A DNA stretch of 32,269 nt from Chloroflexota bacterium (GTDB taxonomy: Bacteria > Chloroflexota > Anaerolineae > UBA4142). The stretch spans positions 1 to 32,269 of the forward strand of contig JACRBM010000089.1 of NCBI GenBank assembly GCA_016219275.1. Reading direction: 5' to 3'. Position numbers and translations under genes: made by a program. Under the pieces are notes generated by a model that saw only the letters and a list, made by a program, of their open reading frames with translations, searched no databases and was not told the DNA's origin. Below are positions 338 through 31,826 of this stretch, piece after piece (the first letter of the stretch is position 1; each line of letters opens with the position of its first letter).

Positions 338-356
338 GGACGTCTTCCTATTCCAC

Positions 357-446: not shown

Positions 447-474
447 TGTTTTTAAACTAGTACTTTCTAACCAA

Positions 475-2206: not shown

Positions 2207-2276
2207 TTCATCCTCTGATGTATCTAGACAGTCCTCGCGCACGATGCGCCGGGCTGAAAACACGAACGGATAGAAT

Positions 2277-2380: not shown

Positions 2381-2416
2381 AGAATAGTTTTCCAACTCGA
2401 AATCACCGTTCGCTAT

Positions 2417-3478: not shown

Positions 3479-4644
3479 GTTTTTACATTCTCCGCGGTCC
3501 ACGTCGCCATAATCCGCTCGAACCGATCCACGACCGTTTCCCAGGTATAGTTTTTCTGAACGTACTCCCTGCCCAGCTTGCCCATTCGATTCGCCAACCC
3601 AGGATTGTGTTTGAGCCACTCGACCGCGCCGACAAACTCATCATAGTCGCGGTACCATAATCCACCATCGCACCGACGAACATGCCCCAGGGTTACGGGA
3701 CATTCCTCATTCACCAGAACTGGACGACCATTCGCCCACGATTCCATGATCGTAAATGAAAAACTCTCGTTTGCCGATGGCTGGCACAGCGCCAAGGCCG
3801 ACGCGCACGCAATTGCTTTATCTTGCTCCGAAACAAATCCACGAAAATCGAACGCCGGATGAACCGGCGGTTTCACCGGTCCATCGCCTAGCACGACAAG
3901 TCGAATTTCACCACCGTTGTCAACATATCGTTGAACAAACTGATAAAGCAGATGAACATTCTTCCCATGTTCTAATCGTCCAATGTACAAAAGATCACAG
4001 CGCGGATGATCGCTTGCGTTATCTACTAACGGAGTCAACGCAACGCCGGCTCCCAAGACCGCATGATGTTGCGGTAGGATTCCTAAAACCTGCATGGCAA
4101 GCGCGCTTTCTTCCGGCGAGTTGAATATAACACCGCTCACGCTTTCCATCAAGAGGCGAGAAAACTCCAAATAGGCATACGGTTCATCGTGCAGACAGGG
4201 TACCAGTACGGTTCGCTCCGGCGCAGACCACGCCGCGTAATGCGAAAGCGGCAGCGCGTAAGGTAAAACAATCACCGCATCGAATTCTTTTGCATGTTTA
4301 GCGATATATTTATAAAGTGGAGTACTGTGCGCGCCGGTTTCTAACCAAGCATGTTGATCGGCGATTGGGAGAGTCCCCAAAATATTGAGACAAAATTCCA
4401 ACGGGGACCGATGAGCGTGGTCCCACCAGGTGATTGGAAATCGCCGGACCAGAACGCCAGTGATGGTTTCTGCGCCGGCGGGGTAAACATTCTCCCAGGT
4501 GTAATGACTGCGCGCACAGGTTGTCCAAACCTCGACCATCCAACCGCGCCGCGCCGATTCCTCGGCAAAACCCATTGCCAGTTTCTCTGCGCCGCCGGCG
4601 ACATCCTGACCGTAACGTAGAACGACAACTGCAATCCGCATCAC
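3475..4644 (-). CDS. Glycosyltransferase family 4 (type 1 of the duplicated module)
   Basis: The protein has 389 residues. The N-terminal Rossmann half begins MRIAVVVLRYGQDVAGGAEKL, with the glycine-rich GGAE loop of GT4 enzymes; the C-terminal half has LLYIGRLEHGKNVHLL and SANESFSFTIMESWANGRPVL (EX7E). It is clearly paralogous to the gene at 6225-7418 (shared TTCARSHYTWEN/TTCARDHLTWQN and GGLWYRDYDEF/GGLYFRDEDEF). GTG at 4644 is followed directly by an in-frame ATG; AAGGA lies about eight bases before the GTG. It starts five bases after the small upstream gene and overlaps the next gene by four, so all three are co-translated. Confidence 0.88.
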   Translation of the reverse strand: MMRIAVVVLRYGQDVAGGAEKLAMGFAEESARRGWMVEVWTTCARSHYTWENVYPAGAETITGVLVRRFPITWWDHAHRSPLEFCLNILGTLPIADQHAWLETGAHSTPLYKYIAKHAKEFDAVIVLPYALPLSHYAAWSAPERTVLVPCLHDEPYAYLEFSRLLMESVSGVIFNSPEESALAMQVLGILPQHHAVLGAGVALTPLVDNASDHPRCDLLYIGRLEHGKNVHLLYQFVQRYVDNGGEIRLVVLGDGPVKPPVHPAFDFRGFVSEQDKAIACASALALCQPSANESFSFTIMESWANGRPVLVNEECPVTLGHVRRCDGGLWYRDYDEFVGAVEWLKHNPGLANRMGKLGREYVQKNYTWETVVDRFERIMATWTAENVKT

Positions 4645-4648
4645 GCGC

Positions 4649-5137
4649 TCAATCCTTTTGCGAACGCAACTGTTTCAACTCGGCTTCGAGCGCCATGATT
4701 TGCCGTTGTTGGGTTTGGCTCAACGCGGTCAATTGATTCAGCGCGCTAATCAAATGCCGGTTCACGTTGACCTGATGTTCAATCGAACGATTGACATAGA
4801 ATAGGACGATCCGATGCAAATACGCGCGGGCACGCTGCCACACGGATCCAAAAATCGGGATGCGCGTCGCGCGCGTCGCGGGCAATTGCGCGCCGGTTTC
4901 TACGTTCGCAAAAGTCTCGTTGGCTAACCGAAGATGATGGTAGAGATTCGGATCATAACCAATATCGTCCGGCTCGCCGGGAAAAGCCGTACCGCCGAAC
5001 GATGGAAAGACGCGCTTTTCATACCCAAGTTCTTTGCGCCGCCGGCGAATTCGTTCGCGAATCTGTTCCATAATTTCGGCGGTATTGATTTCTGGGTCGT
5101 GTATCTCGATCAAGTTGTCAGCCAGTTCTTGGTTCAT
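4649..5137 (-). CDS. Small coiled-coil protein of the glycosyltransferase module, copy 1
   Basis: The 162-residue protein is of unknown function. Residues about 11-37 (IHDPEINTAEIMEQIRERIRRRRK) form a highly charged amphipathic helix. Residues about 95-160 (PIFGSVWQRARAYLHRIVLFYVN, then a glutamine- and leucine-rich helix) look like a membrane-apposed helix and a coiled coil. It is paralogous to 7424-7921: both have an EIN..EIM helix, an IP.F segment, an LHR.V..YVN motif and a C-terminal coiled coil. TAGGAGAAAGAAATG gives a strong ribosome site inside the last codons of the preceding GT4 gene (20-bp overlap). The position before each GT4 pair suggests a scaffold or partner of the transferases, which is inference. 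Confidence 0.8.
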   Translation of the reverse strand: MNQELADNLIEIHDPEINTAEIMEQIRERIRRRRKELGYEKRVFPSFGGTAFPGEPDDIGYDPNLYHHLRLANETFANVETGAQLPATRATRIPIFGSVWQRARAYLHRIVLFYVNRSIEHQVNVNRHLISALNQLTALSQTQQRQIMALEAELKQLRSQKD

Positions 5138-6215
5138 TTCTTTCTCCTAAATTGCAAGCCCGATCCAAGCACCCACGAAATAGTGCGCGCACCACCTCCG
5201 GCGCAAACGCGGCAAGGCGCTCACGTTGGCGACTGACTAGACGCGTTCGCAACGAATCGTTCGCGATTACTTCGTGCGCGATTTCGGCGATGACCGGATA
5301 TTCTTTTCGCCGAATCAAGACACCGGCGTCTCCCAACGTGGACGGCACACCGGTCGAAGCATACGCAAGGACAGGAACATCACAGCGCATCGCTTCGATC
5401 AGAGGAATACAGAAACCTTCGTGCTCGCTCATCGAAATGTACACGTCCGCCATTTGATAGTAGTGTTTCACAGTCTCGACGCGTCCCGTGAAAACGACCG
5501 CATCATCCAAGCCCAATCGCGCCACGAGGCGATGGAGCGCATCCACGTACTTCTGCATTCCCTCTATCGTGCCGACCAACCAGAGGCGCGAACGCGGAGT
5601 AATCCAGGTATGATAAAAATAAAACGCCTTGACGATATCGTGAATACATTTGTTGGGAGCTAATCGTCCAACGTGCAACCACCTTGTTTCGGAGTTGCCC
5701 CAGGTTAAATCAATCTGGGTCAAGCGCGACGACGGTATGTGCTCCAACGAGAAAATCGGCGGCACGACGCCGAGCACGCGGAAACCCATCTGCTCCAAAT
5801 CATGTTGGTTAAAGGGCGAATCCGCAATCGCAAATGCTTTCTCAACAAAGAACGGCAGATCGCGACGCGCCTCTTCCAAACGCCGCGCCAGGTCGCCGTT
5901 CACCGCGTAGAAATAATGCGCGGGCGTGATGTTGTGATAATAGAGCACGACGCGATCCGGCAGATTCAAGACGAAGTGATTGACTTGTCCGCCGACCGAG
6001 TAGTGAAGGATCAACAGATTGTCGGAATGGCTAAACTGACGATAGGCGTAATGCGGACGACATTCCTTTGCCAGGCGCGGCTCCCAAACCTCCGCGAAAA
6101 TTTCGGACGGATAACCCCACTCGCGCGACACGCGACGAAGCATCAAAGCAAGGTTGCCAATCGCATCGGCATAACCAAAGAATGGAAGAATCTGATGAAT
6201 CGCGCGCGGTTGCAT
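5118..6215 (-). CDS. Glycosyltransferase family 4 (type 2), second copy
   Basis: The 365-residue GT-B protein has RWLHVGRLAPNKCIHDIV, ADVYISMSEHEGFCIPLIEA (EX7E) and LAYASTGVPSTLGDAG. It is paralogous to the protein at 2417-3478, including SIGSSVADL/SVGGQVNHF-type and YHNVTP/YHNITP segments. The ATG at 6215 is used here; a TTG two codons upstream is possible. It begins nine bases after the type 1 GT4 stop and overlaps the following small gene by 20 bp. The putative role is addition of a sugar during cytoplasmic assembly of the exported glycan. Confidence 0.87.
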   Translation of the reverse strand: MQPRAIHQILPFFGYADAIGNLALMLRRVSREWGYPSEIFAEVWEPRLAKECRPHYAYRQFSHSDNLLILHYSVGGQVNHFVLNLPDRVVLYYHNITPAHYFYAVNGDLARRLEEARRDLPFFVEKAFAIADSPFNQHDLEQMGFRVLGVVPPIFSLEHIPSSRLTQIDLTWGNSETRWLHVGRLAPNKCIHDIVKAFYFYHTWITPRSRLWLVGTIEGMQKYVDALHRLVARLGLDDAVVFTGRVETVKHYYQMADVYISMSEHEGFCIPLIEAMRCDVPVLAYASTGVPSTLGDAGVLIRRKEYPVIAEIAHEVIANDSLRTRLVSRQRERLAAFAPEVVRALFRGCLDRACNLGERNEPRTG

Positions 6216-6224
6216 TCCCAAACT

Positions 6225-7418
6225 CTATTGTAACGCGCGCCAATGTGTGAGCGCCATTTCAAATCGTTCCAGCACCGCGTTCGCGCTGTATTCAGATTGC
6301 GCGTATCGCTTGCCATTTTCAGCCAATCGGCGACACAGCGCATCGTCCGTCAAAAGCAAATCGAGCGCGGCTTGGAATTCATCCTCATCGCGGAAATACA
6401 ATCCACCGTTACTTTGGATCACATTGTACCGCGTCACGTCACAATCCGCGTGGATCAGCGCCGGCGTACCGCTCTGCCATGCTTCCATCATCACAATCGA
6501 GAAACTTTCGTTGAGCGAGGGCTGACAGAGCAAGGTCGCCGCCGCATACGCGTCCCATTTGGTTTGCTCGTCCACAAAACCCAAACGCACAATGTCCGGA
6601 TGGCGCGGAATGTGTGCAGGTCCCCAACCCATGAATACTAACTTGGTCGCGCCGCCGCGCCGGCGTTTGTACTCCAAGAAATAATCGGCGAGTAGCGCGA
6701 TATTTTTGCCGCGCTCAAAACGACCCGCGTAAAGAATGAATGGCTCGCGCAAATGATAGCGCGCGCTGAATCGTTCCGCATTCGGTTGCGCCGATTCAAG
6801 ATTCGCGATGACGCCGACCACTCGACCACCAGGATGCGCTCCGTACAGGCGTTGAGCCAAGCGCGATTCGGGGTACGCATTGAACATCACGCCCAGGCAG
6901 GCGCGATACATGTCGCGCAGAGGAATCAGACGCGCGTAGATTTCGTCGTGGAGAAACGTCCAGAGGATCGAACGCTCCGGGTAGATCGCTGATCCGTAGC
7001 AGGTCGTGCCAAAGAGATAAGGTCCAAAGATCAGAAAATCAAACGACCGTCCGCGCGCTTCAAGATACGCGTACAGTTCTGGACTGTGCGCGCTCTGGCT
7101 GACCCATTCATACTGTTCGTCCGGCGAAAGTGTTTGCTGGTGCATCAAACGCAAATGCACCGCTTCGTAACGCGCCGCATCGCGTAGTTCGTGCGCAATG
7201 GGAAATCGGTTGACCGGCACGTTGTTGATGATCGTTTCACCGGCGGGCAATTCATTCTGCCAGGTCAAATGATCGCGCGCACACGTCGTCAGGATTTCTA
7301 CATCCGCCAAGCCCGACGCGATCAACTGTTCTGCAAGGATACGAAACGATCTTTCTGCGCCTCCCAAAATATCCCGTCCGTACCGCGGTACGACCAAACC
7401 GATTCGCCAGCGCGCCAT
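6225..7418 (-). CDS. Glycosyltransferase family 4 (type 1), second copy
   Basis: The 397-residue protein starts MARWRIGLVVPRYGRDILGG, again with the GGAE loop, and carries FILYAGRFERGKNIALLA and SLNESFSIVMMEAWQSGTP (EX7E). It pairs with 3475-4644 as a paralogue. The ATG at 7418, with AGG nine bases upstream, is preferred over the TTG at 7427 that overlaps the previous stop. It is the second gene of the first small-protein/GT4/GT4 module. Confidence 0.88.
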   Translation of the reverse strand: MARWRIGLVVPRYGRDILGGAERSFRILAEQLIASGLADVEILTTCARDHLTWQNELPAGETIINNVPVNRFPIAHELRDAARYEAVHLRLMHQQTLSPDEQYEWVSQSAHSPELYAYLEARGRSFDFLIFGPYLFGTTCYGSAIYPERSILWTFLHDEIYARLIPLRDMYRACLGVMFNAYPESRLAQRLYGAHPGGRVVGVIANLESAQPNAERFSARYHLREPFILYAGRFERGKNIALLADYFLEYKRRRGGATKLVFMGWGPAHIPRHPDIVRLGFVDEQTKWDAYAAATLLCQPSLNESFSIVMMEAWQSGTPALIHADCDVTRYNVIQSNGGLYFRDEDEFQAALDLLLTDDALCRRLAENGKRYAQSEYSANAVLERFEMALTHWRALQ

Positions 7419-7423
7419 CGCGT

Positions 7424-7921
7424 TCAACCTGCCTCACGCGAGTGTTCCAGTTCAGCCACGCGCTCGCGTAACGCGCTCACCTCGTTTTCTAGTTTCTGCG
7501 CGCGGGTGTGCGCCAGCTCCAGTCGTTGGACGAGCACGGAGATGACATTCGCTGCCGCTGTGTTATAGACCACCTGTCGCCCTGCCATCTGATTCACGTA
7601 CTTGACCACGAGGCGATGCAACAAATTTTCCAGACGATAGAAAACAAAGTTGAAAAACGGTATCTGCCGATCGCGCATCGCCAGCGATACCAGGATCGCG
7701 TCCGCGCTGGTCTGCAATTGACGCAAATCATAACTGAGATCGGCATCCGATTGATCTGTGGCAACGCGTGGCGCGCGCGCGTCCACCAACGCATCATACT
7801 CCAATCCCTGCGCGTTCGCTTGTGCGCGCCGCTCACGAATACGGGCACGTACGCGCTGCATAATCTCTTCGACGTTGATCTCGGCATCGCGAATCTCAAT
7901 GCCGCGCTGATCATCTGTCAT
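7424..7921 (-). CDS. Small coiled-coil protein of the glycosyltransferase module, copy 2
   Basis: The 165-residue protein is of unknown function. The N-terminal helix (IRDAEINVEEIMQRVRARIRERR, residues about 9-31) and the IPFFNFVFYRLENLLHRLVVKYVN segment match its paralogue at 4649-5137. The C-terminal 45 residues (QRLELAHTRAQKLENEVSAL and onward) are a clear heptad coiled coil. The ATG overlaps the GT2 stop upstream as ATGA (7918-7921). The repeated position ahead of a GT4 pair argues for a structural role with those enzymes. Confidence 0.8.
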   Translation of the reverse strand: MTDDQRGIEIRDAEINVEEIMQRVRARIRERRAQANAQGLEYDALVDARAPRVATDQSDADLSYDLRQLQTSADAILVSLAMRDRQIPFFNFVFYRLENLLHRLVVKYVNQMAGRQVVYNTAAANVISVLVQRLELAHTRAQKLENEVSALRERVAELEHSREAG

Positions 7922-9309
7922 TTGGCGCTCCGTTCCGCGCTGGTTTCCGCATGATCTAGCATCGCGAGCATCGCATCCGCTACGCTTGCCTCATCCATGC
8001 TGTCCAATTGCTGAAGACGTGACAAGGCATCAGTTGCGCGCATTAAAGTCGCCAGCCCGCGAAACGTCCGCAAATTGAAAATCGTTTGTTGCCGCAGCAC
8101 CGGTTCGAGATAGTAGCGCATCACTTGCCTTGCCCAAAAATCCAGGCACGCATCAATCACTCGCCCAACCACCGGGACGTGCGAATTCGAGCGGGGCAAT
8201 TTCAGCGCAGATTGATTTTCCAAATCTTCGATGTGCGTGTACAACCCGGCGAGATCAATCGTTTCCGGCAACGCGCTTTGCAAAACCGGCAAATACTCCG
8301 GCGCAGAAACTTTTTGTTGTGCCAACGCCGACTGTCGCATAATCAGCGCCGCAACGCGCGAATGCGCTAGTTGCCGGAGCGACTGGAGCGATTCGATCAC
8401 ATGCCGGCTCTCGCCGCGCGTGAGCCGCGCGCCCAACGTCGAATCATTTTTGCGCTGGGACGCGATGAGCGGATAAGCGAGCAGATTATCCCAGTACGCG
8501 CGTGAGTACGCCACCATATCGTCAATCAGACCGGCGATTTCGATTGCCCTGTGCTCGGCGCTGAAAAATTCTGCCAACTCGCGCGCATTCCAATGCCGAA
8601 GCACAAAGCGTACGCGGTTGCGATGATAGGCAAGCACGCGCGCGTGGCTGGCGGCTGGCAACGTCGCGGTCTCGTAGTGATCCAGGACCGCACGCGGTTG
8701 ATAGACGACGCGAAATCCCGCGCGCCGCGCGCGGTAACAGCAATCAACCTCTTCATAAAACGCGGGATGGAATTTTTCATCCAACCCGCCGAGGCGTTCC
8801 AAAACTTGCCGCCGAATTCCAAACGCCGCGCCGGTAACGTAATCCGGCTCGGTCAATGTATCGTACTGACCCTGGTCTTGCTCGCCCCAACCGATGTGAT
8901 GCGTCCATGCCGTCGCGGGTTGAACAACGCCGCCCGCATGTTGGATCCCGCGCCCATCCGGGTATAGTGCCTTACATCCGACAATTCCAATCCCAGGATC
9001 GGCAAATGTATCGGCAATCGCGCGCAACCATCCTGGCTTGACTGCCGTGTCTTGATTCAGGAGAACAACGATTTCCCCAGTCGTCGCGCGAATGCCGATA
9101 TTATTTCCGCCGGCGAAACCCAAATTGTGATCGTTCCGCACCAAGCACACGCGCGGAACGAATTTTTGGACAATCGAAACCGAGTCGTCGGTCGAAGCAT
9201 TGTCCACGACGACAATCTCGGCACTCGCGTCTTGATCGAGCAACGCGCGCAAACACGCGTCGAGAAAACGCGCGCCATTCCACACCAAGACGACAACCGA
9301 AAACCGCAT
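7918..9309 (-). CDS. Glycosyltransferase family 2 (rhamnosyltransferase-like)
   Basis: The protein has 463 residues. The N-terminal GT-A domain (about 1-230) begins MRFSVVVLVWNGARFLDACL, with VVDNASTDDS for nucleotide binding, LNQDTAVKPGW in the DXD position and EEVDCCYRARRAGFRVVYQP near the acceptor side, a pattern common to WbbL-type rhamnosyltransferases. The remaining 230 residues are helical and unrecognised, about twice the usual tail length. It starts four bases after the exporter ATPase stop and overlaps the next gene by four bases. The sugar specificity is not readable. Confidence 0.88.
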   Translation of the reverse strand: MRFSVVVLVWNGARFLDACLRALLDQDASAEIVVVDNASTDDSVSIVQKFVPRVCLVRNDHNLGFAGGNNIGIRATTGEIVVLLNQDTAVKPGWLRAIADTFADPGIGIVGCKALYPDGRGIQHAGGVVQPATAWTHHIGWGEQDQGQYDTLTEPDYVTGAAFGIRRQVLERLGGLDEKFHPAFYEEVDCCYRARRAGFRVVYQPRAVLDHYETATLPAASHARVLAYHRNRVRFVLRHWNARELAEFFSAEHRAIEIAGLIDDMVAYSRAYWDNLLAYPLIASQRKNDSTLGARLTRGESRHVIESLQSLRQLAHSRVAALIMRQSALAQQKVSAPEYLPVLQSALPETIDLAGLYTHIEDLENQSALKLPRSNSHVPVVGRVIDACLDFWARQVMRYYLEPVLRQQTIFNLRTFRGLATLMRATDALSRLQQLDSMDEASVADAMLAMLDHAETSAERSAK

Positions 9310-9313
9310 TGGC

Positions 9314-10552
9314 TCAACGTTCCTGTTTGATGTGAGACCAGTTGCCGCGCACCGTCACCAAACCGTACCGCTCGCGACATCCATCCGCGTTCACAATTCG
9401 AAACGGATATGCGCGGTCGTGATAATCGTACATTTCCGGATTATCCGTCGCGTGCGCCGAAACCGAAATGTGATACAATCCTTCCAACATCGGTAAATGC
9501 GGAATCGTAAACGCGACAGTGCCGCGTCCTTCGAGCATCGGCAAAGGAAAACCGGCGAACGATGTGTTTGGACCCGTAATATGCATCCCATCGTGGCGAT
9601 GAATCGCTATGCCGAACGTCGGTGCGGCGGTCGGTTGGTGCGCACAATAATCTATCTCCAACTTCAACGAATCGCTGGTCGCGAACATGGCTTGCTCTTC
9701 GCCGTTGTCTCCTTTGATTCGTACGTCCGTGATTTCAATTCGCCGCGTGCCCCAGCGTTGTTCCGGCGCGATCGATCCGCGCGCGCGCGGTTTCATTCCC
9801 TCGCCAAATTGATATTGATCCACGACCGCGCCGGCTTGACCATCGGAGACGACGCGCCCATGTTCCAACCAAATCGCGCGTTCGCACAACGATTTCACCG
9901 CGTCGAGATTGTGCGATACGAAAAGAATCGTCGCGCCCGCTGCGCGGAAAGACAGAATGCGCTCGAACGATTTGCGTTGAAATTCGGCATCGCCCACCGA
10001 GAGCACTTCGTCGAGAATCAAAATCTCCGGTTCCACATCGGTCGCCACCGCAAACCCGAGGCGCGCCACCATCCCGCTCGAAAATGTGCGGAGGGGCGCA
10101 TCAATAAACTCCCACAATTCCGCAAAGTCCACGATCCGATCAAATTTTTCGCGCATCTGGGCGCGCGAAAAGCCGAGCAACGCGCCATTCAAAAAAACGT
10201 TTTCGCGCCCGGTCAACTCGGGATGAAAACCCGCGCCGAATTCCAACAACGGTGCGACCGCGCCGGCAATGCGAACGCGCCCGGTGGTTGGACGCAACAC
10301 GCGCGCGATGACTTTGAGCAGGGTGCTTTTGCCCGCGCCATTTCTGCCGATGATGCCGATCATCTCGCCGCGGCGCGCGTCGAGTGTCACCTCGCGCAAC
10401 GCCAAAAACTGTTCGGTTTGTGTGCGTCTTTGCAGCCAACGGATCGTGTGTTCTTTCAGCGAGGCAATGCGTTCATGCGGCACGCGATAGCACACCGAAA
10501 TATCGTCGAGGCGAATCGCCGTGTCGCGCTCAGATTCGGTACGCCAGTCCAT
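9314..10552 (-). CDS. ABC transporter ATP-binding protein, Wzt/TagH type
   Basis: The protein has 412 residues. The nucleotide-binding domain has Walker A GRNGAGKST (69-77), signature TFSSGMVARL (about 156-165), Walker B EILILDE (176-182) and a switch histidine in FVSHN. The ELTGRENVFLNG segment is typical of polysaccharide and teichoic-acid exporters. Residues about 250-412 form a C-terminal extension like the Wzt carbohydrate-binding domain, which in Wzt proteins recognises the finished glycan. I chose the ATG at 10552 because AAGGA sits six bases upstream; it overlaps the permease gene by 23 bp. It works with the permease at 10530-11354 to move a lipid-linked glycan across the cytoplasmic membrane. 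Confidence 0.92.
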   Translation of the reverse strand: MDWRTESERDTAIRLDDISVCYRVPHERIASLKEHTIRWLQRRTQTEQFLALREVTLDARRGEMIGIIGRNGAGKSTLLKVIARVLRPTTGRVRIAGAVAPLLEFGAGFHPELTGRENVFLNGALLGFSRAQMREKFDRIVDFAELWEFIDAPLRTFSSGMVARLGFAVATDVEPEILILDEVLSVGDAEFQRKSFERILSFRAAGATILFVSHNLDAVKSLCERAIWLEHGRVVSDGQAGAVVDQYQFGEGMKPRARGSIAPEQRWGTRRIEITDVRIKGDNGEEQAMFATSDSLKLEIDYCAHQPTAAPTFGIAIHRHDGMHITGPNTSFAGFPLPMLEGRGTVAFTIPHLPMLEGLYHISVSAHATDNPEMYDYHDRAYPFRIVNADGCRERYGLVTVRGNWSHIKQER

Positions 10553-11354
10553 CCGCATTCCTTGCAAAGAACCACCAGCCAATCACGAACGCGCCCACCG
10601 CGATCGCGCTCGCGACGGCGATCATTTCGAACGAGGGCAACACGCCGGCATAAATGGGCTGGCGAAAAATTTCGAGGAGGTAGTAAATCGGATTGAGCAA
10701 AAAGAACCATTGCAGGTTCGCGGGAATAATTTCCTTGGGATAAATGATCGGCGTGAGGTACAACCACGCGGTCAGCGCGACCTGATAAATGTCAACGACA
10801 TCGGCGAACGACACCGCCAATATGGACAGGACGAGTCCCACACCGAGCGCGAACAGCGCCGTGAGCAAAATTGGAATGGGCAAGAAAACGAGCGCGGGAC
10901 GCAACGGTACGCCAGACACGAGGACGATCAACCCGAGCGGGACCAATGCCAACACCAGGTTGACCATGCCGGTGCCAACCGCCGCGAGCGCAAAGATGGT
11001 GCGCGGCACGTAGATGCGCTGAAGCAATCCACTGCCCCACACCAACTCGGACATGGCAGTCAACGTCGCATGTGAGAAAAAATTCCACAACACGAGCGCG
11101 GACAAGACGTAGACGGGATAATGCTCGAGTGCGATGCGAAACACATTCGAAAAGACGATAGTGAGGATCGTCATCATCAAGAGCGGGTTGAGCATTGTCC
11201 ATGCTAAACCCAGGACGGATCGTTTGTAGCGCACCGTCAAATTACGCACGACGAGTTGCGCGAGCAAATCGCGATAGCGCACGACCTCGCGCAATTCCTC
11301 GAGCATCGCCGGCGGACGATGCGCCGAATCGTAGAAATCGGACACGGTTCGCAT
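10530..11354 (-). CDS. ABC-2 type polysaccharide export permease, Wzm/TagG type
   Basis: The 274-residue membrane protein has about six transmembrane segments. The N-terminal amphipathic region (LLAQLVVRNLTVRYKRSVLGLAWTMLNPLL) is the hallmark of the Wzm/TagG/KpsM group, and WLYLTPIIYP with LLNPIYYLLEIFR are further family signatures. It is the partner of the ATPase encoded immediately downstream with a 23-bp overlap. The start at 11354 is nine bases after the preceding gene and has no evident ribosome site, so translation is probably coupled. Confidence 0.93.
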   Translation of the reverse strand: MRTVSDFYDSAHRPPAMLEELREVVRYRDLLAQLVVRNLTVRYKRSVLGLAWTMLNPLLMMTILTIVFSNVFRIALEHYPVYVLSALVLWNFFSHATLTAMSELVWGSGLLQRIYVPRTIFALAAVGTGMVNLVLALVPLGLIVLVSGVPLRPALVFLPIPILLTALFALGVGLVLSILAVSFADVVDIYQVALTAWLYLTPIIYPKEIIPANLQWFFLLNPIYYLLEIFRQPIYAGVLPSFEMIAVASAIAVGAFVIGWWFFARNADGLAYRI

Positions 11355-23046: not shown

Positions 23047-23577
23047 CTACCCTGCCATCCACCACGCCAGGGACGCGATGGCGAAAACAAGTATGCGACA
23101 TGCTCGACGCATGATGCGCCGAACCAAATTACGCGAGACACCGGCGGATTGCGCTTGCCACCGTGAACATTGCGCGATGACCTGGAACAGGATCCGAATC
23201 CGCGTCGAACGCAAATGCTTGATGCGTCCATCGCGCGCGCGCGCGCCGACCACGCCTTCATACGACCCAGGTTGCCACGCGCGATCTTCCACCGGTTGAT
23301 TATCGCCTTTGGTAACGAACCAATCTTCTCCCGCGATAACGCGACGTTCGATCAAGCGATGCGCCAACCACACATGGTTAACGGGATGCACGATAATGTC
23401 GCCGACGCGCACCGCTCGCGCGGCGAGCGGTTGAACGATAACCGCATCGCCCGGCGCGAGCAAGGGCAACATGCTCGCGGTTGGAATGGTAAAGCGCACA
23501 TCACGCCCCGCGCGTAAATGTTCGCCGATCAAATCGTTTGTCGCCAGAACGCGCGCTGACACTTGAGCTACCTTCAT
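23047..23577 (-). CDS. S26 signal peptidase, SipW/ER-like (Ser-His type)
   Basis: The 176-residue protein has FTIPTASMLPLLAPGDAVIV (Ser35 nucleophile), VGDIIVHP, LAHRLIER (His73 in place of the bacterial lysine) and VTKGDNQPVED (GDN 91-93). Ser-His active sites define archaeal, ER and SipW-type signal peptidases. Unusually there is no N-terminal transmembrane segment; instead a hydrophobic helix lies at the C-terminus (about 161-175). The ATG at 23577 is five bases from a TATAAT, so the mRNA is probably leaderless. It heads a three-gene unit with the FnIII protein and the C25 lipoprotein, which may be among its substrates or partners. Confidence 0.85.
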   Translation of the reverse strand: MKVAQVSARVLATNDLIGEHLRAGRDVRFTIPTASMLPLLAPGDAVIVQPLAARAVRVGDIIVHPVNHVWLAHRLIERRVIAGEDWFVTKGDNQPVEDRAWQPGSYEGVVGARARDGRIKHLRSTRIRILFQVIAQCSRWQAQSAGVSRNLVRRIMRRACRILVFAIASLAWWMAG

Positions 23578-23680: not shown

Positions 23681-26600
23681 TTACTTGCTAATCTGCGGGA
23701 GAAACATGTTCGGTTGAAACGCGAGACGCGCGGCGGGATCGCCCAACAAGTTGAACGTGTCGAGCAAATCGAGTGCGCCGCCGCCGCCATTCGTGTACAA
23801 GAATTGCTTGCCGGCAACCGTCGCGGGACCGATCTGATGCAAGCCCGGCGACATGATGGACAAGAAGAAACCGCGGTTGATATAGTCGTGCCCCGTCGCG
23901 ACACCCAACCCGCTCGCCGCCCAACTCGCCAGCGCGCCCTTGCTCGTCGCACGCACATTCGTCTCGGCAAGACTGGAAAAACTCTGATTGTTGTGATGAA
24001 AATAGCCCGTGTAGCACGTCATTTCCAAGACCACCATCGGCTTGCCGCTATTCGTCAACCCTGCCACATCGCTCGCCGCGAAAAAAGTCTCGTGCGCCCA
24101 TGCCATGATCGAACCATGTCCGACATAATTGAGAATCAAGCGACCATCATTGACGCTCGAGTTCAACGCCGATTTGAGGGCGGCGGTCGTCGTGTACGGC
24201 GTGTACGGCGGATTCGCCAGCGCGCAGTACGCGTACGTGTTCGGATCGCACGGATTGTAATAGATGCGATCGGCGATGAACGAGAATGGCATCAGTTGCG
24301 AACTGCTCGCGACCTCGTCGGAGTACGCCCAGAAATCGCCCGCTCCATCCATCGCGCCGCTCGTGCTGAACGTATTGTCGGACAAGAACGCGATGGTGCC
24401 ACGCCAACCGCCAAACGTCGGGCTTTGTTCGTTCGCGATGATCTTGTTCACCATCGCGTCCGCTTCGGTCGTGTTGTTCACCGGCAAGCGCCCGATCGCG
24501 AGACTGGGAAGCGTGTTCGTCGGCGAAAAAGTGACAAGCCGATTGTCGCTCGCAGTTTCGCCAATCCAGGGATCAACGAATTTAAAGTACGGCGGAATGA
24601 AGGTTCTATTCGGCGTCGTCGCGCCTTCGGTGGGACACGAACCGATGATGCAATAGCCGAGCGGATCGGTGTGCCCATCGCCGACGAGCAACACGTACGC
24701 CGGCGCGGGCGCTTGCCAATTCGCAAACGCGTACGCGAGAAAATCGCGAATCGCTTGCGGGTCTGCCAACCCGTCGGCAAATTCGTCATAGACATCTTGG
24801 ACATCAATCAACTTGGTGCTGAGTCCTTGCGCCGCGCGCAGATTCACGAGCGGTTGGACGTTCGTCAGAAACGCGTTGTGCGAAATCGCGATGTAATCCG
24901 CGCCGTTGCTTGGCGACACCAGGTTCGCCGACGCGTCGAGCGTGATGCTCGCCGGCGATTTGCGCTGCGCGTTCGCCAGCGCCAAGTACTCGCGCGCGGA
25001 CGCGATGGTGTCGCCGAACGTGAGCGTGTAGGACGGTCCGCCAGTGATGCTCGTGTTGATAAAACGCGTCACGCTGTACGGATCGGTGATGTCGAAAACT
25101 TGGAGCGCGTTCGACGTAAAACTCGTGATTGGATATTGCCATGTGCCACTCGCGACTTGGCGAAAACGCAACGTGTCGGTCACAGCAGTTAACGTTGCGT
25201 TGTAACTCACATCGAACGAGTTGAACACAATAAATTTTCCAGCAGCGCTGTTGTTCTGAACGCGCAATGTATTGTTGCCTGCCAACATAAATGCTTGCGA
25301 AAAAGGCACGGTCGCGGTGTAAGCCAGGTCGTGCGTCCACGTCACGTTCGAAATCACATTTCCGTTGACCAAGACCTGCGCGGTGTAAGGAAGTCCACCC
25401 GACCCAACCAAGCGAAGCGTTGCCGTCCCGGTGTAGGTTCCCCCCGCAAGACGATTCGCCTGGAAAGGATAATCGGCAAACGCGCCGGACGCGATAAAAT
25501 TCCAGAACCAGTGATCCGTATCCTGGTATGGAATCGCAGACCGATAGTAATGGTTCTCTTCGGTGTGCAGCGTATCGGTGAACACACCGGGCGACACACC
25601 CGCGACACTCCCATCGCGCGTGGGCATGCGCTTGCCATTCGTCGCGCCGAAGGTGAGCCAGTAGATATTCGTGATCGAATACCTGGACGTCGCGGCTTGA
25701 CCCAAAAATTCGAAATAGTTGCTCGCGCCGCATGTCGTCGTCCACGTCGTTCCCACGACATTGATCGCGAGTTCCGTCGCGGCGTCGAACAATTGCAGCG
25801 TCGCCGTGTTGAGCGTCGCGGGGTTCACACCCGCGTTTTGTAAATCCTGGCACGTGACCTGATACAGTCCGTCCGCGTTGACCGCGATTTTGTACCACGG
25901 TCCACCAGAGTAACGCGGCGCGCGCGCGGGCTGGGTCGTGGCGGGACGCGCGCGCCAATTACGCGCGGATGCATAGTTCGCGAACGATCCTTGGAACACA
26001 GATTCGAACGCGCCTTCATTCACCGCGCCGCCCAACGCTTGCGCGGTGCGCCCCTGCGGATAACTGAGTGCAAGTTCGACGCGCACGCGGCGATGAAATG
26101 TTGCCTGGCGCGTGACGGGGTTGTATTGCAGAAGATTGAACTCGACGACGACGTAACGTTGACTGCGCCACGCGCCGGTCGTCGCGACGCGCGCAACGGA
26201 CGCGGGATACGCGCGGTTCGTGGAGTAGGTCGCGGCATCCGGCACGTAGGACGCGCCGGCATAACTCGGCAGACTCTGACGCGGGTCGGCGTTGACGCGT
26301 TGAGTGGGAACCGGCAACGGCGGATTCGCGAGCGCGTCGGTGCGCGCGTCGTCGGCGGTAATCGTCAACGCGACTTGCGCGCCGGGTGGAATCGCGATCA
26401 TCGCGGATTGCGTGGGGAGTTGCGGCTTGCCCGGCTCGATGGTGTGACCCAAGCCGGGTATCGCGAGCACGCTGAACGTGCCGGACTCGACGCGTTGAGT
26501 ACGCACGGAATACGCGTCCACATTCAGTTCGAGCACGATACGGTTCGTATCGGATTGTAGCACGCGCACACCGACTTGCGCGGACTGGGCATCCAGCGTG

Positions 26601-26683
26601 GGCGCATCGAACGACACGATTATCGCGCCCAGCAGACCAGCGAACAAACTAACAACAAGCCAATGAATCCACTTGCGAGGCAT
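23681..26683 (-). CDS. Large secreted C25 (gingipain-like) cysteine peptidase
   Basis: The 1000-residue protein has a signal peptide (about 6-33), an N-terminal propeptide-like region (about 35-210; IEPGKPQLPTQSAMIAIPPG is typical of gingipain-family prodomains), a beta-rich middle domain, and a C25 domain from about residue 600 (NGADYIAISHNAFL). The catalytic pair is in YVGHGS (His856) and EMTCYTGYF (Cys890), and the protein ends FNLLGDPAARLAF followed by a short tail. The ATG at 26683 is preferred; a GTG four codons upstream is possible. It lies 20 bp after an FnIII-anchored protein gene. It is a homologue of the lipoprotein at 19954-22137 but has its own prodomain and no lipobox. The role is probably extracellular proteolysis or maturation of surface proteins. 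Confidence 0.9.
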   Translation of the reverse strand: MPRKWIHWLVVSLFAGLLGAIIVSFDAPTLDAQSAQVGVRVLQSDTNRIVLELNVDAYSVRTQRVESGTFSVLAIPGLGHTIEPGKPQLPTQSAMIAIPPGAQVALTITADDARTDALANPPLPVPTQRVNADPRQSLPSYAGASYVPDAATYSTNRAYPASVARVATTGAWRSQRYVVVEFNLLQYNPVTRQATFHRRVRVELALSYPQGRTAQALGGAVNEGAFESVFQGSFANYASARNWRARPATTQPARAPRYSGGPWYKIAVNADGLYQVTCQDLQNAGVNPATLNTATLQLFDAATELAINVVGTTWTTTCGASNYFEFLGQAATSRYSITNIYWLTFGATNGKRMPTRDGSVAGVSPGVFTDTLHTEENHYYRSAIPYQDTDHWFWNFIASGAFADYPFQANRLAGGTYTGTATLRLVGSGGLPYTAQVLVNGNVISNVTWTHDLAYTATVPFSQAFMLAGNNTLRVQNNSAAGKFIVFNSFDVSYNATLTAVTDTLRFRQVASGTWQYPITSFTSNALQVFDITDPYSVTRFINTSITGGPSYTLTFGDTIASAREYLALANAQRKSPASITLDASANLVSPSNGADYIAISHNAFLTNVQPLVNLRAAQGLSTKLIDVQDVYDEFADGLADPQAIRDFLAYAFANWQAPAPAYVLLVGDGHTDPLGYCIIGSCPTEGATTPNRTFIPPYFKFVDPWIGETASDNRLVTFSPTNTLPSLAIGRLPVNNTTEADAMVNKIIANEQSPTFGGWRGTIAFLSDNTFSTSGAMDGAGDFWAYSDEVASSSQLMPFSFIADRIYYNPCDPNTYAYCALANPPYTPYTTTAALKSALNSSVNDGRLILNYVGHGSIMAWAHETFFAASDVAGLTNSGKPMVVLEMTCYTGYFHHNNQSFSSLAETNVRATSKGALASWAASGLGVATGHDYINRGFFLSIMSPGLHQIGPATVAGKQFLYTNGGGGALDLLDTFNLLGDPAARLAFQPNMFLPQISK

Positions 26684-26703
26684 AAGTCCATACACCTTTG
26701 AGA

Positions 26704-27315: not shown

Positions 27316-28710
27316 TTAATTGCGACGCAAAACGACGACCACAACGCCGGCGAGCAAAACGCCCAACGCGCTGAACTGCAACCAGCGATTCGAGTCCGTT
27401 TGCGCGGTCAAATCGCTCAATGTTACCGCAGTCGGATCATTGAAACCGAGGCGATGGTCTTCAACTTCACCATTGCCATAGCGTCCCGAGAATGCACTGG
27501 TGGTATTGAAACTCGGGTAAGTGCAAGTGCCATTATCTGGACCGACACCATCGTTCCTCTCGAACAAACGCCAGCGCGAGTAGAACACGCCGGTCGGCGA
27601 AGTGCCACCTGGGACATTGAAACTGATGGTATTGTTTCCCGGCACCACTGGTACATTTTGGACAATGTAATCTCCCGGATCAGTGAAACCAGTACCACTA
27701 AAATCCATCCAGGCAACGAGACAACCATTGCCACCCGAGACAACAACGTTTACTGAATTAGTGCCACCCGCGTTCCATTGGGTTTGTCCAGCAGAAAGGG
27801 CAACACCGTCTTCATCATTCGGTGTGAGGGTCGTATTGTCACGCTTGGCGTCGCTGGCATTTTGTTGTCCATTGTCTTCGCCGTCAATCTGTGACCCAAG
27901 ACGAATCGAACCAATTACATGACCGCCGGAAGTGAGGCTACCAACCGTCATCGCATTGTAAACAACTGGGCCCGACGGCAAATCGCCATAATCCAACCGC
28001 GTCGTCTCAAAAAGTTCGAGCGCGATATCATTGTCTTCCTGACCACCGGTCAGTTGAATTTGAATCACGTTCACACTTGTAAAGTTCGCCGCCGACGCAA
28101 AACCCGAACACTGGGAAAACTGATTCGTGTTCACATAACGGAAAACCATCGCAACAGCAGGGTCGCCAGAAATAACTGGCGGACTAGGTAACTGGAGTAC
28201 CCTATATGAGCAAGACGTTGCGTTGCTATAGACCGTAACTGTTATTTGGTCTCTAGCTGTGCTAAAGTTATTCGAGTGGATAATAGCCACGAATGCATTG
28301 TCGCCGTTTGCGGTCAAGTCAACATTGCCCAAGCCAGAATAGTTGATGTTTTGGCTGTTGTCATTGCCATCGTACGTGAAGATGGAGTAAGCAACAACGT
28401 TTGTGCCTTGGCTCTGCGCCATACGCCCCAAACCACCACCATTGGTATCGATACTGGCTACACTACTACTACCAACATTCAATACGGTGAGCGTCACTTC
28501 GCGCTCTGCACCAATAATGTCCGCGCCGCCTACCACGCGTTGCCATGTCGAACCAAGACCATTTTGAGTCACCGTTTGCGCGGTATCAAAGAGATCAACC
28601 GTACGATCAGGATTCGCAAACGTCTGGATCGGCTGTTGGAGCATCAATCCCGCAGCAAGCACGAGCAGAACGAAACAAAGTGCAAACAGACGAGCATGTC
28701 GAGTACTCAT
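27316..28710 (-). CDS. Secreted GEVED-domain surface protein with C-terminal anchor
   Basis: The 464-residue protein has a signal peptide (about 7-32), an N-terminal beta-rich region with Asn-rich loops (about 35-230), a linker LDYGDLPSG, and a GEVED domain ending GRYGNGEVEDHRLGF (about 413-428). Residues about 443-461 are a membrane helix ending LRRN. DYGDLP/GEVED domains occur in bacterial surface proteins of unknown ligand. A strong ribosome site (AAAGGAGG) lies six bases before the ATG. Codon use is more AT-tolerant than in the glycan genes. The gene sits 191 bp after the peptide gene, with no clear terminator between, and could be co-transcribed with it. Confidence 0.82.
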   Translation of the reverse strand: MSTRHARLFALCFVLLVLAAGLMLQQPIQTFANPDRTVDLFDTAQTVTQNGLGSTWQRVVGGADIIGAEREVTLTVLNVGSSSVASIDTNGGGLGRMAQSQGTNVVAYSIFTYDGNDNSQNINYSGLGNVDLTANGDNAFVAIIHSNNFSTARDQITVTVYSNATSCSYRVLQLPSPPVISGDPAVAMVFRYVNTNQFSQCSGFASAANFTSVNVIQIQLTGGQEDNDIALELFETTRLDYGDLPSGPVVYNAMTVGSLTSGGHVIGSIRLGSQIDGEDNGQQNASDAKRDNTTLTPNDEDGVALSAGQTQWNAGGTNSVNVVVSGGNGCLVAWMDFSGTGFTDPGDYIVQNVPVVPGNNTISFNVPGGTSPTGVFYSRWRLFERNDGVGPDNGTCTYPSFNTTSAFSGRYGNGEVEDHRLGFNDPTAVTLSDLTAQTDSNRWLQFSALGVLLAGVVVVVLRRN

Positions 28711-28901: not shown

Positions 28902-29069
28902 TCAACTAAACTCCGTGCCGCAAGAAACATCCGCTTTGCCCGGGGACGCGCCACAATCAGTCGCCATGGCTTCGAGCGGCGCTTGATATACCACATCGGG
29001 CGTTTCGTACGGCTTCTTCTCTTCCACCGGCGTGGCTTGGGACATTCTGCGTTCTTCTGGCTTGTTCAT
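28902..29069 (-). CDS. Candidate RiPP precursor peptide with lasso-type leader
   Basis: The 55-residue peptide has a perfect ribosome site (AAGGAGG, six bases from the ATG at 29069); a longer in-frame start at 29111 lacks one. The charged leader (residues 1-37) contains KKPYETPDVVYQAPLEAMAT: Tyr21, Pro24, Val26, Ala30 and Leu32 fall at the spacing of the YxxPxLxxxGxL motif that lasso-peptide leaders present to their PqqD-like RRE protein. Thr37 would be the conserved Thr at position -2. The core would be CGASPGKADVSCGTEFS: Cys1, an acidic residue at 9, a second Cys at 12 and a C-terminal Ser. It lies 67 bp after a radical SAM/SPASM gene. A thioether (sactipeptide-like) product is an equal alternative. 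Expression and modification are inferred. Confidence 0.75.
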   Translation of the reverse strand: MNKPEERRMSQATPVEEKKPYETPDVVYQAPLEAMATDCGASPGKADVSCGTEFS

Positions 29070-29136
29070 ACTTTTCCTCCTTACAGGATGACTGGATACA
29101 ACTTGAGTCAAGGATAACGTTACTGACTATACACGA

Positions 29137-30351
29137 TCAAGCAACGTCCGCCCGAGAATTTGGGGGCATAACCTCGGACAATAAAATAAAATTCGTCGGC
29201 AGAGATTCACTCAACGCAATCGGCGCGGACTGAACCTGGGTCGCATACTCTCGCAAATGCGCCGGAATCGCATAGTCCGGCGGTAACGCGCCTTTTTCGA
29301 TCAATGCCTGTCGCCGCGCGAGCGCCTCGCGGCAATTGACGAGCGCCGGAGCGCGCAAACTGCCATCCTCCATTTGCGCCAACCCGTGACAGCGCACACA
29401 CAACGTATTCAGCTCGCACGTACGGCACACCGGCAATTCACCCAGTTTCAACTGTCCCAGGTCTTGCCACAGCGGCGCCTGTTCCCAAATATCACGCACC
29501 GATTTTTCCCGCACATTCCCAGCGGCAGAGCGCACTTGGAGACACGGATACACATTCCCGTACGGATCAAGCGCGAGCGCTTTGGACGCGATGCCACACG
29601 TCCGTGTTTCGGGCGTCACCTGGCGATTGACCCACAACGCGGGATCAATTTCATCGCGCATCAACGCGACCAACTGATCGTAGGTCATCCGATGCTTGAG
29701 CGGATCCTTGCCGCCGGTATCTTTCGGCGTGATCGTAATGTCGTACTTGAAGCGCGCACCCAGTTCCTGCGCCAATGCCTTGAGCGCCGGCAAGTCCGCC
29801 ACAGTCTCGCGCATCAACGGCGTTTTCATGATCGTCCGTATGCCGCGTTCGTGCAGCAAACGCAACGCGCGCGTCGTCAATTCGAGCGAGCGCGGCACAC
29901 GCGTGATGCCATCGTGAACCTCGGGGCGCGTGCTATAGACGCTCAACTCGACTGCGTACGGATGCAGCGCGGCAATCCGATCGGCGACGTGGTCTTTGAT
30001 GAGAATGCCATTCGTGAACAACCGCAGGAGAAAACGCTTGGAACGCGCATACTCGGCGATGTCGAAAAAATCGCGTCGCACCAAAATCTCGCCGCCGGAT
30101 AAGGTGAGGTTCAACGCACCCAGTTCCGCGAGTTGGTCAATGACCTGAAAACATTCTTGGGTTGTTAATTCGCCGGGTACCGGCGCGTTCGGCGCAAACA
30201 CATCGAGATAACAATGCGTACAGCGTTCGTTGCACCGATAGGTCAGTTCCCAGTGCGCCGAGAGCAAACGATGTGTCTTGCCCGATCGCGCGACAATTTG
30301 TTCGTATGCGTTCGTGCTTTCTGGTTGCCCAGAAGGACCATCAACAGACAT
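29137..30351 (-). CDS. Radical SAM/SPASM peptide-modifying enzyme (PqqE-like)
   Basis: The 404-residue protein has CNERCTHC (Cys40, 44, 47) for the SAM-cleaving cluster, LSGGE (85-88) for SAM binding, and a full seven-cysteine SPASM pattern: Cys252, 270, 309, 312, 318, 321 and 340, with LDPYGNVYPC. Such enzymes cross-link or rearrange RiPP precursors. The ATG at 30351 has GGGAG seven bases upstream. A PqqD-like gene lies upstream and the small Cys-containing peptide downstream, so the peptide is the natural substrate candidate. There is no RRE-like N-terminal domain, which fits a separate PqqD-like carrier. The C-terminal 50 residues after the clusters are unassigned. Confidence 0.9.
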   Translation of the reverse strand: MSVDGPSGQPESTNAYEQIVARSGKTHRLLSAHWELTYRCNERCTHCYLDVFAPNAPVPGELTTQECFQVIDQLAELGALNLTLSGGEILVRRDFFDIAEYARSKRFLLRLFTNGILIKDHVADRIAALHPYAVELSVYSTRPEVHDGITRVPRSLELTTRALRLLHERGIRTIMKTPLMRETVADLPALKALAQELGARFKYDITITPKDTGGKDPLKHRMTYDQLVALMRDEIDPALWVNRQVTPETRTCGIASKALALDPYGNVYPCLQVRSAAGNVREKSVRDIWEQAPLWQDLGQLKLGELPVCRTCELNTLCVRCHGLAQMEDGSLRAPALVNCREALARRQALIEKGALPPDYAIPAHLREYATQVQSAPIALSESLPTNFILLSEVMPPNSRADVA

Positions 30352-30417
30352 TCGATGACTCCCTGTCCGTCATGAACAATGGAGATGTGAACGGCATCGT
30401 CACCGTCCGTATATGAT

Positions 30418-30442
30418 AAAAAACCGACCACAAAACGGTCGG
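30418..30442 (-). terminator. Intrinsic terminator inside the radical SAM leader
   Basis: CCGACC (30442-30437), a 7-nt loop and GGTCGG (30429-30424) are followed on the minus strand by TTTTTT (30423-30418). It lies 66 bp before the radical SAM start codon and about 120 bp after the predicted transcription start, an attenuator-like position. It could instead end transcripts from the kinase and PqqD-like genes. Confidence 0.85.
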
Positions 30443-30564
30443 ATACGCCACCCGCTCCTCCCGGTCCCGTACTAGGCGTCCAAATTCCGTCGCGTGACGA
30501 AAGACCAGGGATCAATGCTTCCGTTTGAACGAATTACTCGCAGAGTTGAATCAACTATGGGGCG

Positions 30565-30593
30565 ATTATCGCATACTATTTTGAGAAAATCAA
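30565..30593 (-). promoter_or_regulatory. Candidate promoter for the radical SAM and peptide genes
   Basis: TTGATT (30593-30588), a 17-bp spacer and GATAAT (30570-30565) on the minus strand. The start would be near 30558, giving a leader of about 205 nt before the radical SAM ATG. Confidence 0.55.
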
Positions 30594-30699
30594 GTGCTTT
30601 GACATGGGGCAATTGTGCCTACTTTTGTAATCGCCTCGTCTATGTTAGAATTCTTTTTGTGCTACGGAATCACACGGACACACACACACACAGCCCATT

Positions 30700-30987
30700 C
30701 TATTCGGTAGTTGGGTCGTTCAATAACAGCGCATTCGCCTTGAGCAATTTATTCACGAACGCTTCGACATCTGTTTGCGCCTGTTCGAGCGACACGGTGT
30801 ACTCGGCTTGAATCGTCGTTACAATCTCGCCAAGCGTGCGCGTACCATCGGCGAGTTGCCACACCCGCGTGCCGACCGCGTTGAGTACGATCACCTCGCC
30901 GGAATCCGCCAACACGATGACTGCCGAGCCATCCACGATCCGCGTCGCGACTTGGGCGTGCGGTTGCGGACGTTTATTCCAATCCAT
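30700..30987 (-). CDS. PqqD-like RRE-family peptide chaperone
   Basis: The 95-residue protein matches the PqqD family in length and pattern: strands in TRIVDGSAVIVLADSGEVIVLN, then VGTRVWQLADGTRTLGEIVTTI and a C-terminal helix (VEAFVNKLLKANAL). PqqD proteins bind the leader of a precursor peptide and present it to the radical SAM enzyme; B1 proteins of lasso systems are of the same fold. The ATG at 30987 has GGAGG seven bases upstream and overlaps the end of the kinase gene by 14 bp. PqqD-related proteins beside HprK-related kinases are also described in exosortase-associated HPr-rel-A systems, so peptide binding is likely but not proven. Confidence 0.88.
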   Translation of the reverse strand: MDWNKRPQPHAQVATRIVDGSAVIVLADSGEVIVLNAVGTRVWQLADGTRTLGEIVTTIQAEYTVSLEQAQTDVEAFVNKLLKANALLLNDPTTE

Positions 30988-31789
30988 CCAATATCCTCCA
31001 GAATTCGGCGTCCCGGCGAAAATGCAACGCGCGCACCGGCACTGTCGCGACAATATCCTGACAAATTTCCATGACGCGTCGCGTGTGCGCCGGCACGGTC
31101 ATCACGAACGGCACACAGCGCGCCATCTGAGCGACGGCTTGCGACGCCGCCAACGGTTCGAGGCGATGCTCCGCCGCTTTGACGAGCGTGAACGCGCCGC
31201 ATAACTCGGCGGACGCATTCGTGCGCGGCGCTTCGGGCATATCGCCGCGAAACGGCACACCGTACAAATAATAACGGTCGTCGCGTTTTTTGAGAATCAC
31301 CATGTCATCGCTCAACACGGTGCGATCCATCGAAAACGTCGTGACCGTCGTCTTGCCGTTCCCCGAGGGACCGAAGAACACAAAACCGCGTCCGTGCGAA
31401 ATGATGCCGGCGGCGTGCAACAAGAGCAAGTTCTCTTCCATGCACCGCCAGGCGTACAACACGCGCAGAAAATTCTCGGTTGTGCCTTGGGGACGCAGAA
31501 TCAATTCGCCTTGGCAAGTGGCGAGGTCTGCCCACCCTTTTTCATAGTACGATTCAAAATCAATGCGGTCGCCGTGTCGCTCAGTGTGAATTTGCCATGT
31601 CGGCGAAATATCGAGCGGGATATACGGAGGACCTGGTTCAACGTGCAGGCGAACCGCGAGGGCATCGGATCGAGGAGGCACGACGAACGCGCTGTAATGC
31701 TCAACGATATGTTTTTCGATGTCAGCGTCGAATTCATCGCGCACGAGCGTCGTCGGGATGTCGGCGATATTGATTGTGGTTGCATCCAT
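30974..31789 (-). CDS. HPr kinase-like (HprK-related) P-loop kinase
   Basis: The 271-residue protein has LLLLHAAGI (122-129), Walker A GPSGNGKTT (140-148) and LSDDMVILKK (159-168), the core of HprK-related kinases. It lacks the N-terminal domain of true HPr kinases. Homologues in lasso-peptide clusters phosphorylate the C-terminal Ser of the precursor; homologues elsewhere have unknown substrates. The peptide downstream ends in Ser. The ATG at 31789 lies eight bases from a perfect TATAAT, with no ribosome site, so translation is probably leaderless. It is the first gene of the locus, overlapping the PqqD-like gene by 14 bp. Confidence 0.88.
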   Translation of the reverse strand: MDATTINIADIPTTLVRDEFDADIEKHIVEHYSAFVVPPRSDALAVRLHVEPGPPYIPLDISPTWQIHTERHGDRIDFESYYEKGWADLATCQGELILRPQGTTENFLRVLYAWRCMEENLLLLHAAGIISHGRGFVFFGPSGNGKTTVTTFSMDRTVLSDDMVILKKRDDRYYLYGVPFRGDMPEAPRTNASAELCGAFTLVKAAEHRLEPLAASQAVAQMARCVPFVMTVPAHTRRVMEICQDIVATVPVRALHFRRDAEFWRILDGLE

Positions 31790-31797: not shown

Positions 31798-31826
31798 ATT
31801 ATATTGTACTCGGACTGATCTGTCAA
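31798..31826 (-). promoter_or_regulatory. Perfect-consensus promoter of the kinase gene, predicted leaderless
   Basis: TTGACA (31826-31821), exactly 17 bp, then TATAAT (31803-31798). Only eight bases separate the -10 box from the ATG at 31789, so the start site would coincide with the initiation codon. Confidence 0.85.

Follow-up and report, generated by a model that had tools for sequence, protein, structure and literature searches.

What does a bacterium make with a locus that joins accessory genes of lasso-peptide type to a radical S-adenosylmethionine (SAM) enzyme? The question is raised by contig JACRBM010000089.1 (C89) of a Chloroflexota bacterium (Anaerolineae, UBA4142; assembly GCA_016219275.1), whose 32,269 nucleotides are referred to below as the window; the contig stops at position 32269. 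Near this end lie genes for an HprK-like kinase, a PqqD-like protein, a radical SAM/SPASM enzyme and a small Cys-containing peptide, which a preliminary description had read as a compact locus for a ribosomally synthesized and post-translationally modified peptide (RiPP). Our analysis confirmed all four genes, in one direction on the minus strand:

30974..31789, minus strand: HprK/PEPCK-fold kinase, 271 aa, with the P-loop GPSGNGKTT and an LSDD motif
30700..30987, minus strand: PqqD-like RiPP recognition element (RRE) protein, 95 aa (PF05402, 63.4 bits)
29137..30351, minus strand: radical SAM/SPASM enzyme, 404 aa, with CxxxCxxC and the SPASM Cys set
28902..29069, minus strand: precursor peptide, 55 aa, leader KKPYETPDVVYQAPLEAMA, core region TDCGASPGKADVSCGTEFS

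We regard this cassette as probably a separate kind of RiPP biosynthesis locus, judging from the sequences of its enzymes, its peptide and its relatives.

The enzymes and the precursor peptide

Each enzyme carries the features of the family to which it was assigned. The PqqD-like protein, which starts at the ATG at 30987 and overlaps the stop of the kinase gene, scores above the cut-off of PF05402, as RRE proteins do. The radical SAM enzyme exceeds the Pfam cut-offs both for the radical SAM domain (PF04055, 76 bits) and for SPASM (PF13186, 37.8 bits), and its best profile matches among PDB entries are SkfB, at the top, and PqqE; this is the kind of maturase found in sactipeptide and ranthipeptide systems. 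Profile searches with the kinase returned weak matches to HprK-related models; its AlphaFold2 model (predicted local distance difference test score 92.9) has the PEPCK/HPr-kinase fold and superposes on 1ii2 (VIA Z 15.4, root-mean-square deviation 4.2, 236 aligned), and the P-loop residues and the Asp are invariant among the cassette kinases. The kinase thus has the HprK fold together with the P-loop, as PadeK-type enzymes do.

The peptide gene starts at the ATG at 29069, preceded by an AAGGAGG Shine-Dalgarno site, and relatives of it adjoin nearly all homologous cassettes whose ends were covered. A profile built from 16 peptides and run against nine whole genomes matched only the cassette copies and one new copy, which turned out to be part of a further cassette (L099). 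For two Acidobacteriota peptides, the most closely related pair that allowed the comparison, the proportion of nonsynonymous differences (pN) is 0.062 and that of synonymous differences (pS) 0.468. With the Shine-Dalgarno site, the relatives beside homologous enzymes and a pN far below pS, the peptide goes far past what chance would give: it is a real gene under purifying selection. Its conservation next to homologous enzymes, on which the earlier reading depended, is thus borne out by the neighbourhoods, the profile search and pN/pS, and RRE-dependent RiPPs likewise have a small, conserved precursor gene next to the genes of the enzymes that modify its product.

The peptides share a leader rich in Lys and Arg, followed by Y or W-x2-P-x-I/V/L. 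The first Cys stands 18 residues past the leader Tyr/Trp in the main group and 17 in Bdellovibrionota, and a small-x-small motif, mostly LEAxA, occupies a fixed place ahead of it, with AxA two residues before the Cys. The core contains two invariant Cys residues, which in the main set have a spacing of 10 to 21 residues and often GK between them; the loop that they bound differs freely from peptide to peptide, in its sequence as well as in its length (6 to 21 residues). A C-terminal Ser is found in 15 of the 16 peptides of the main set (for a Ser frequency of 0.068 the binomial p is about 5e-17, a calculation that ignores the kinship of the peptides). The leader had been called lasso-type, which holds for its YxxPxI motif and fails for the penultimate Thr of lasso leaders, which is absent.

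Distribution and peptidase neighbours

A single scan of species genomes with the radical SAM protein as query yielded 29 loci, and the kinase, PqqD and peptide genes recur around the related ones. Relatives of the peptide accompany homologous enzymes in Chloroflexota, Acidobacteriota, Bdellovibrionota and a deltaproteobacterial metagenome-assembled genome (MAG). The gene set is found, with unusual surface proteases as neighbours, in three or four bacterial phyla. A paralogous cassette, with a radical SAM enzyme 57% identical to that in the window, occurs on contig C58 of the same genome; close matches are rare, as only one of the other 399 sampled Chloroflexota genomes gave a radical SAM match over 500 bits. 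The genes upstream of the cassette in relatives look, from their translations, like housekeeping or surface genes.

The surroundings of the cassette in the window include two kinds of peptidase:

27316..28710, minus strand: GEVED-domain surface protein (PF20009) with a C-terminal transmembrane segment
26704..27159, minus strand: FN3-like protein with a C-terminal transmembrane segment, conserved beside many cassettes
23681..26695, minus strand: C25 (gingipain family) peptidase, 1004 aa, with a C25 propeptide (PF01364, 5.6e-81), a conserved neighbour
23047..23577, minus strand: S26 signal-peptidase-like protein with Ser-Met and His-Arg boxes and no N-terminal transmembrane segment
19954..22251, minus strand: second C25 peptidase, 765 aa; a C25 gene also lies beside the paralogous cassette on C58

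S26-like proteins recur beside cassettes, with the Ser conserved and the His present in nearly all, and the structural model of the S26-like protein most resembles signal peptidases and LexA-type peptidases. Large C25 peptidases and FN3-like proteins recur likewise, as do NTP_transf_5 genes. Of the six C25 genes of this genome, four belong to the two cassettes, and another comes after a kinase-PqqD pair on contig C16; five of the six have a PqqD gene no more than about 12 kb away. The term "compact four-gene locus" is too narrow: the S26 and C25 peptidases belong to it, and so does a riboswitch, described below.

Several variants were noted. On C16 (L057, reverse strand, about 20-24 kb) genes for an HprK-like kinase, a C-terminally extended PqqD protein (extension ITRREFIKRAGL) and a C25 peptidase stand in a row without a radical SAM gene. 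In four other Acidobacteriota loci (L108-L110, L081) the kinase and the radical SAM enzyme accompany another precursor type, PAIEWEEPYEPVVFAASC-x6-C, from which the terminal Ser is mostly absent. A related Acidobacteriota clade (L113, L114, L116, L118 and L119), with no kinase in the DNA examined, has a C25 protein some 1450 aa long and a short precursor, YERPAIIHTEKLEARAVxC...GPIQS. In the window itself, the region downstream at 584-11354, in the same direction (minus strand), encodes, by its translations, glycosyltransferases, a pair of proteins for ABC-type polysaccharide export and another radical SAM/SPASM protein.

A predicted riboswitch ahead of the radical SAM-peptide unit

The 348 bases between the PqqD and radical SAM genes hold three regulatory elements, listed here together with the promoter of the kinase:

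31798..31826, minus strand: kinase promoter, TTGACA-17-TATAAT, 12 of 12 consensus positions
30565..30593, minus strand: promoter-like site of the radical SAM-peptide unit (TTGATT, TG, GATAAT)
30428..30531, minus strand: aptamer of the c-di-GMP-II-GAG type (Rfam 38.5 bits, gathering score 40, E 3.3e-4 for the whole window)
30424..30442, minus strand: intrinsic terminator, CCGACC-GUUUUGU-GGUCGG followed by U6; it overlaps the aptamer at its 3' end and would serve as expression platform

The kinase thus has its own promoter, a perfect match to the consensus at 31826-31798, as had been described. From these elements the radical SAM-peptide unit is predicted to lie behind a riboswitch that resembles sensors of cyclic di-GMP (c-di-GMP). 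Two related genomes (loci L016 and L049) have such sites as well. The orthologous place in L016 has identical promoter boxes and a weaker c-di-GMP-II match (5886-5986); the same locus carries a c-di-GMP-II riboswitch above the RF01786 cut-off ahead of its GEVED gene. In L049 two tandem sites, both above that cut-off, precede a whole operon in the order NTP_transf_5-kinase-PqqD-radical SAM-peptide-C25. Over these five sites (one in the window, two each in L016 and L049), 97.7% of the cells in P1-P3 and the pseudoknot are paired and 12 of the 18 pairs show double changes, a level of covariation reached by none of 500 shuffles. With P1-P3 and a covarying pseudoknot, a promoter before and a terminator after, the site is thus like the c-di-GMP-II class (RF01786; GAG variant RF03169), and differs in scoring slightly below the cut-off and in preceding a RiPP unit. 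Single-strand folding without ligand or pseudoknot favours the terminator form over the P1 form (-40.3 against -32.7), which would fit a switch that is off until the ligand binds.

Seven other c-di-GMP-II matches occur in the genome, two of them above the cut-off. Riboswitches of the c-di-GMP-I type were seen as well: one of 82.6 bits lies directly upstream of the stand-alone C25 gene on contig C52 (L058, 9713-9797), and a c-di-GMP-I-GGC aptamer (73.7 bits, cut-off 59) lies at the far end of the window (356-447, minus strand), its gene being off the contig. Rfam matches to sX6 in the window and to let-7 in L016 fell below the cut-off and were taken as chance.

Known systems, rival explanations and a proposed pathway

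The nearest named system is SynChlorMet (NCBIfam TIGR04248-TIGR04251), which shares a P-loop kinase-like protein (ScmC), a PqqD-like protein (ScmD), radical SAM/SPASM enzymes, a small Cys peptide and a nearby NTP_transf_5 gene, and differs in having two radical SAM enzymes instead of one and an unrelated precursor. The proteins in the window pass none of its cut-offs (ScmE 99.4/400, ScmF 65.9/400, ScmD 40.1/100, ScmC 12.6/125), and plain membership was rejected on these scores. A SynChlorMet cassette that lost one radical SAM gene would explain the similar parts, as relatives of the kinase match ScmC, and the PqqD protein ScmD, weakly; the kinases and PqqD proteins of the two systems show a kinship that scores below cut-off, and a SynChlorMet cassette occurs on C58 of the same genome. 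The ScmE of that cassette, however, scores 404 against the cut-off of 400 (its ScmF 372 against 400), the two Scm enzymes fall, on long branches, outside all cassette enzymes in the radical SAM tree, and the precursors differ, which makes this origin improbable. The C58 SynChlorMet cassette (L047, 795-6737; C58:70.8-76.7 kb) consists of NTP_transf_5, ScmD-like, ScmE, ScmF, a Cys peptide and a ScmC-like kinase and lies about 5 kb before the paralogous cassette. A redox-cofactor pathway like those of pyrroloquinoline quinone (PQQ) or mycofactocin, which would break the peptide down to a small cofactor, is suggested by the top NCBIfam match of the radical SAM enzyme, the mycofactocin maturase model (130.7, far below the cut-off of 265), and by the closeness of the PqqD-like protein to the PqqD equivalog (39.9 against 46). 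We consider it about as improbable: the freely varying Cys-Cys loop is unlike cofactor precursors, and no typical cofactor-handling genes were noticed nearby. An ordinary lasso cluster with its protease and cyclase elsewhere would account for the leader, the RRE and the kinase, and the genome does encode a PqqD plus Transglut_core3 pair on C43 and Asn-synthase genes (PF00733) on C20, C40 and C47. Yet a PF00733 search of this genome found none on C89 or C58, and the lasso protease family PF13471 lies near none of ten cassettes checked, is absent from seven of nine relatives' genomes and in the other two sits on different contigs. The radical SAM gene is moreover always in the cassette, the leader has no Thr at -2 and the core no conserved ring-closing Asp/Glu. 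We rejected this explanation on the absence of PF13471 near the cassettes and of Asn synthase on C89 and C58, and regard it as very nearly excluded. The C43 pair (L045, 6038-6716), which is like lasso B1-B2, stands beside a sulfotransferase-like gene, and the own-genome search found no Asn synthase on that contig.

A rival of a different kind makes the peptide a maturation or regulatory partner of the C25 surface proteases (e.g. a cross-linked inhibitor, propeptide or anchor) and no free natural product. It draws on C25 genes adjoining the peptide in Chloroflexota, Acidobacteriota, the deltaproteobacterial MAG and a Bdellovibrionota genome, even without the kinase, on the C25 gene that follows the kinase-PqqD pair without a radical SAM gene on C16, and on the lack of any identified peptide exporter near the cassette. 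We think it unlikely, since C25 was not found in the DNA examined around L026, L028 and several Acidobacteriota cassettes (on short contigs), and the sixth C25 gene of the genome, on C52, has no cassette in the 14 kb read.

The claim of a RiPP-like mixture of lasso-type accessory parts and a radical SAM/SPASM enzyme is supported: the peptide is conserved beside homologous enzymes, and neither lasso gene lies beside the locus. The claim that no described class has this set is weaker than it had seemed. SynChlorMet itself has kinase, PqqD and radical SAM/SPASM proteins, and RRE-Finder counted about 300 RREs of the lasso model beside radical SAM genes without lasso enzymes (PMC7470986). Given that count, the broad group, probably the same one, had been glimpsed before, in a form that did not consider precursor, kinase, peptidases or regulation. 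In the open-access literature we did not find the combination of PqqD, HPr kinase, radical SAM enzyme and precursor peptide, any mention of SynChlorMet, or, among the papers listed, a C25 peptidase paired with radical SAM RiPPs; this speaks weakly for novelty. Sactipeptides and ranthipeptides (SkfB, AlbA, SCIFF) share the Cys-bearing core and the radical SAM/SPASM enzyme, whose nearest solved structure is that of SkfB, whereas the cassette has a separate RRE protein, two core Cys residues only, a kinase and S26/C25 peptidases. In lasso peptides of the paeninodin and pseudomycoidin type, PadeK phosphorylates the C-terminal Ser of the precursor and the nucleotidyltransferase PsmN then adds a hexose (PMC9266682). 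The cassette is like these in its HprK-like kinase, discrete PqqD-like B1, YxxP leader, C-terminal Ser in most peptides and, at some loci, a nucleotidyltransferase; it differs in having a radical SAM/SPASM enzyme in place of lasso protease and cyclase, and no leader Thr at -2.

Under the favoured reading, that of a separate kind of RiPP locus, the PqqD-like protein would bind the YxxPxI leader and present the core to the radical SAM/SPASM enzyme, which would cross-link one or both conserved Cys residues, rather likely through a thioether. By analogy with PadeK on paeninodin, the HprK-like kinase would phosphorylate the C-terminal Ser, for which we see an even chance; NTP_transf_5, presumably of the same Pfam family as PsmN, may extend the phospho-Ser where it is present. 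The S26-like protease could, more tentatively, cut after AxA ahead of the first Cys, and it is conceivable, if doubtful, that the exported C25 peptidase trims or releases the product; C25 may alternatively be the target of the product. The radical SAM-peptide unit would be transcribed from its own promoter through the riboswitch, with c-di-GMP as the ligand suggested by its sequence, and ligand binding would block the overlapping terminator. This ON logic seems to us the likelier one, and the peptide would then be made at high c-di-GMP, i.e. in surface-attached life.

Several observations weigh against parts of this picture. The related Acidobacteriota clade named above has radical SAM, PqqD, peptide and C25 genes and no kinase within the 14-15 kb examined, and its peptides still end in Ser or Thr; conversely, three of the four FAASC-type peptides that have a kinase lack the terminal Ser. 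With exceptions in both directions, Ser and kinase are not strictly linked, and we dropped the idea of a kinase-linked rule. The leader regions are not hydrophobic, unlike usual S26 substrates, and the missing exporter counts here too. The aptamer in the window falls just below the Rfam gathering score, and no such riboswitch was found at more distant cassettes, several of whose contigs begin too close to the cassette for a judgement; control of c-di-GMP type is thus a local trait, found only at the window, L016 and L049, and we rejected it as a trait of the whole family. Taken together as a distinct RiPP class over several phyla, with radical SAM cross-link and Ser phosphorylation, S26/C25 processing and c-di-GMP riboswitches in some Chloroflexota, the proposal is a tentative one.

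The cassette would be a recurrent undescribed RiPP architecture in which a lasso-type kinase and radical SAM cross-linking bring two known tailoring logics to one precursor, and it may account for some of the lasso-like RREs placed beside radical SAM genes by RRE-Finder. It is tied to gingipain-like surface peptidases and, at three loci, to c-di-GMP-type riboswitches, which yields a concrete and testable hypothesis: that cells would start to make the peptide when they turn to attached life.

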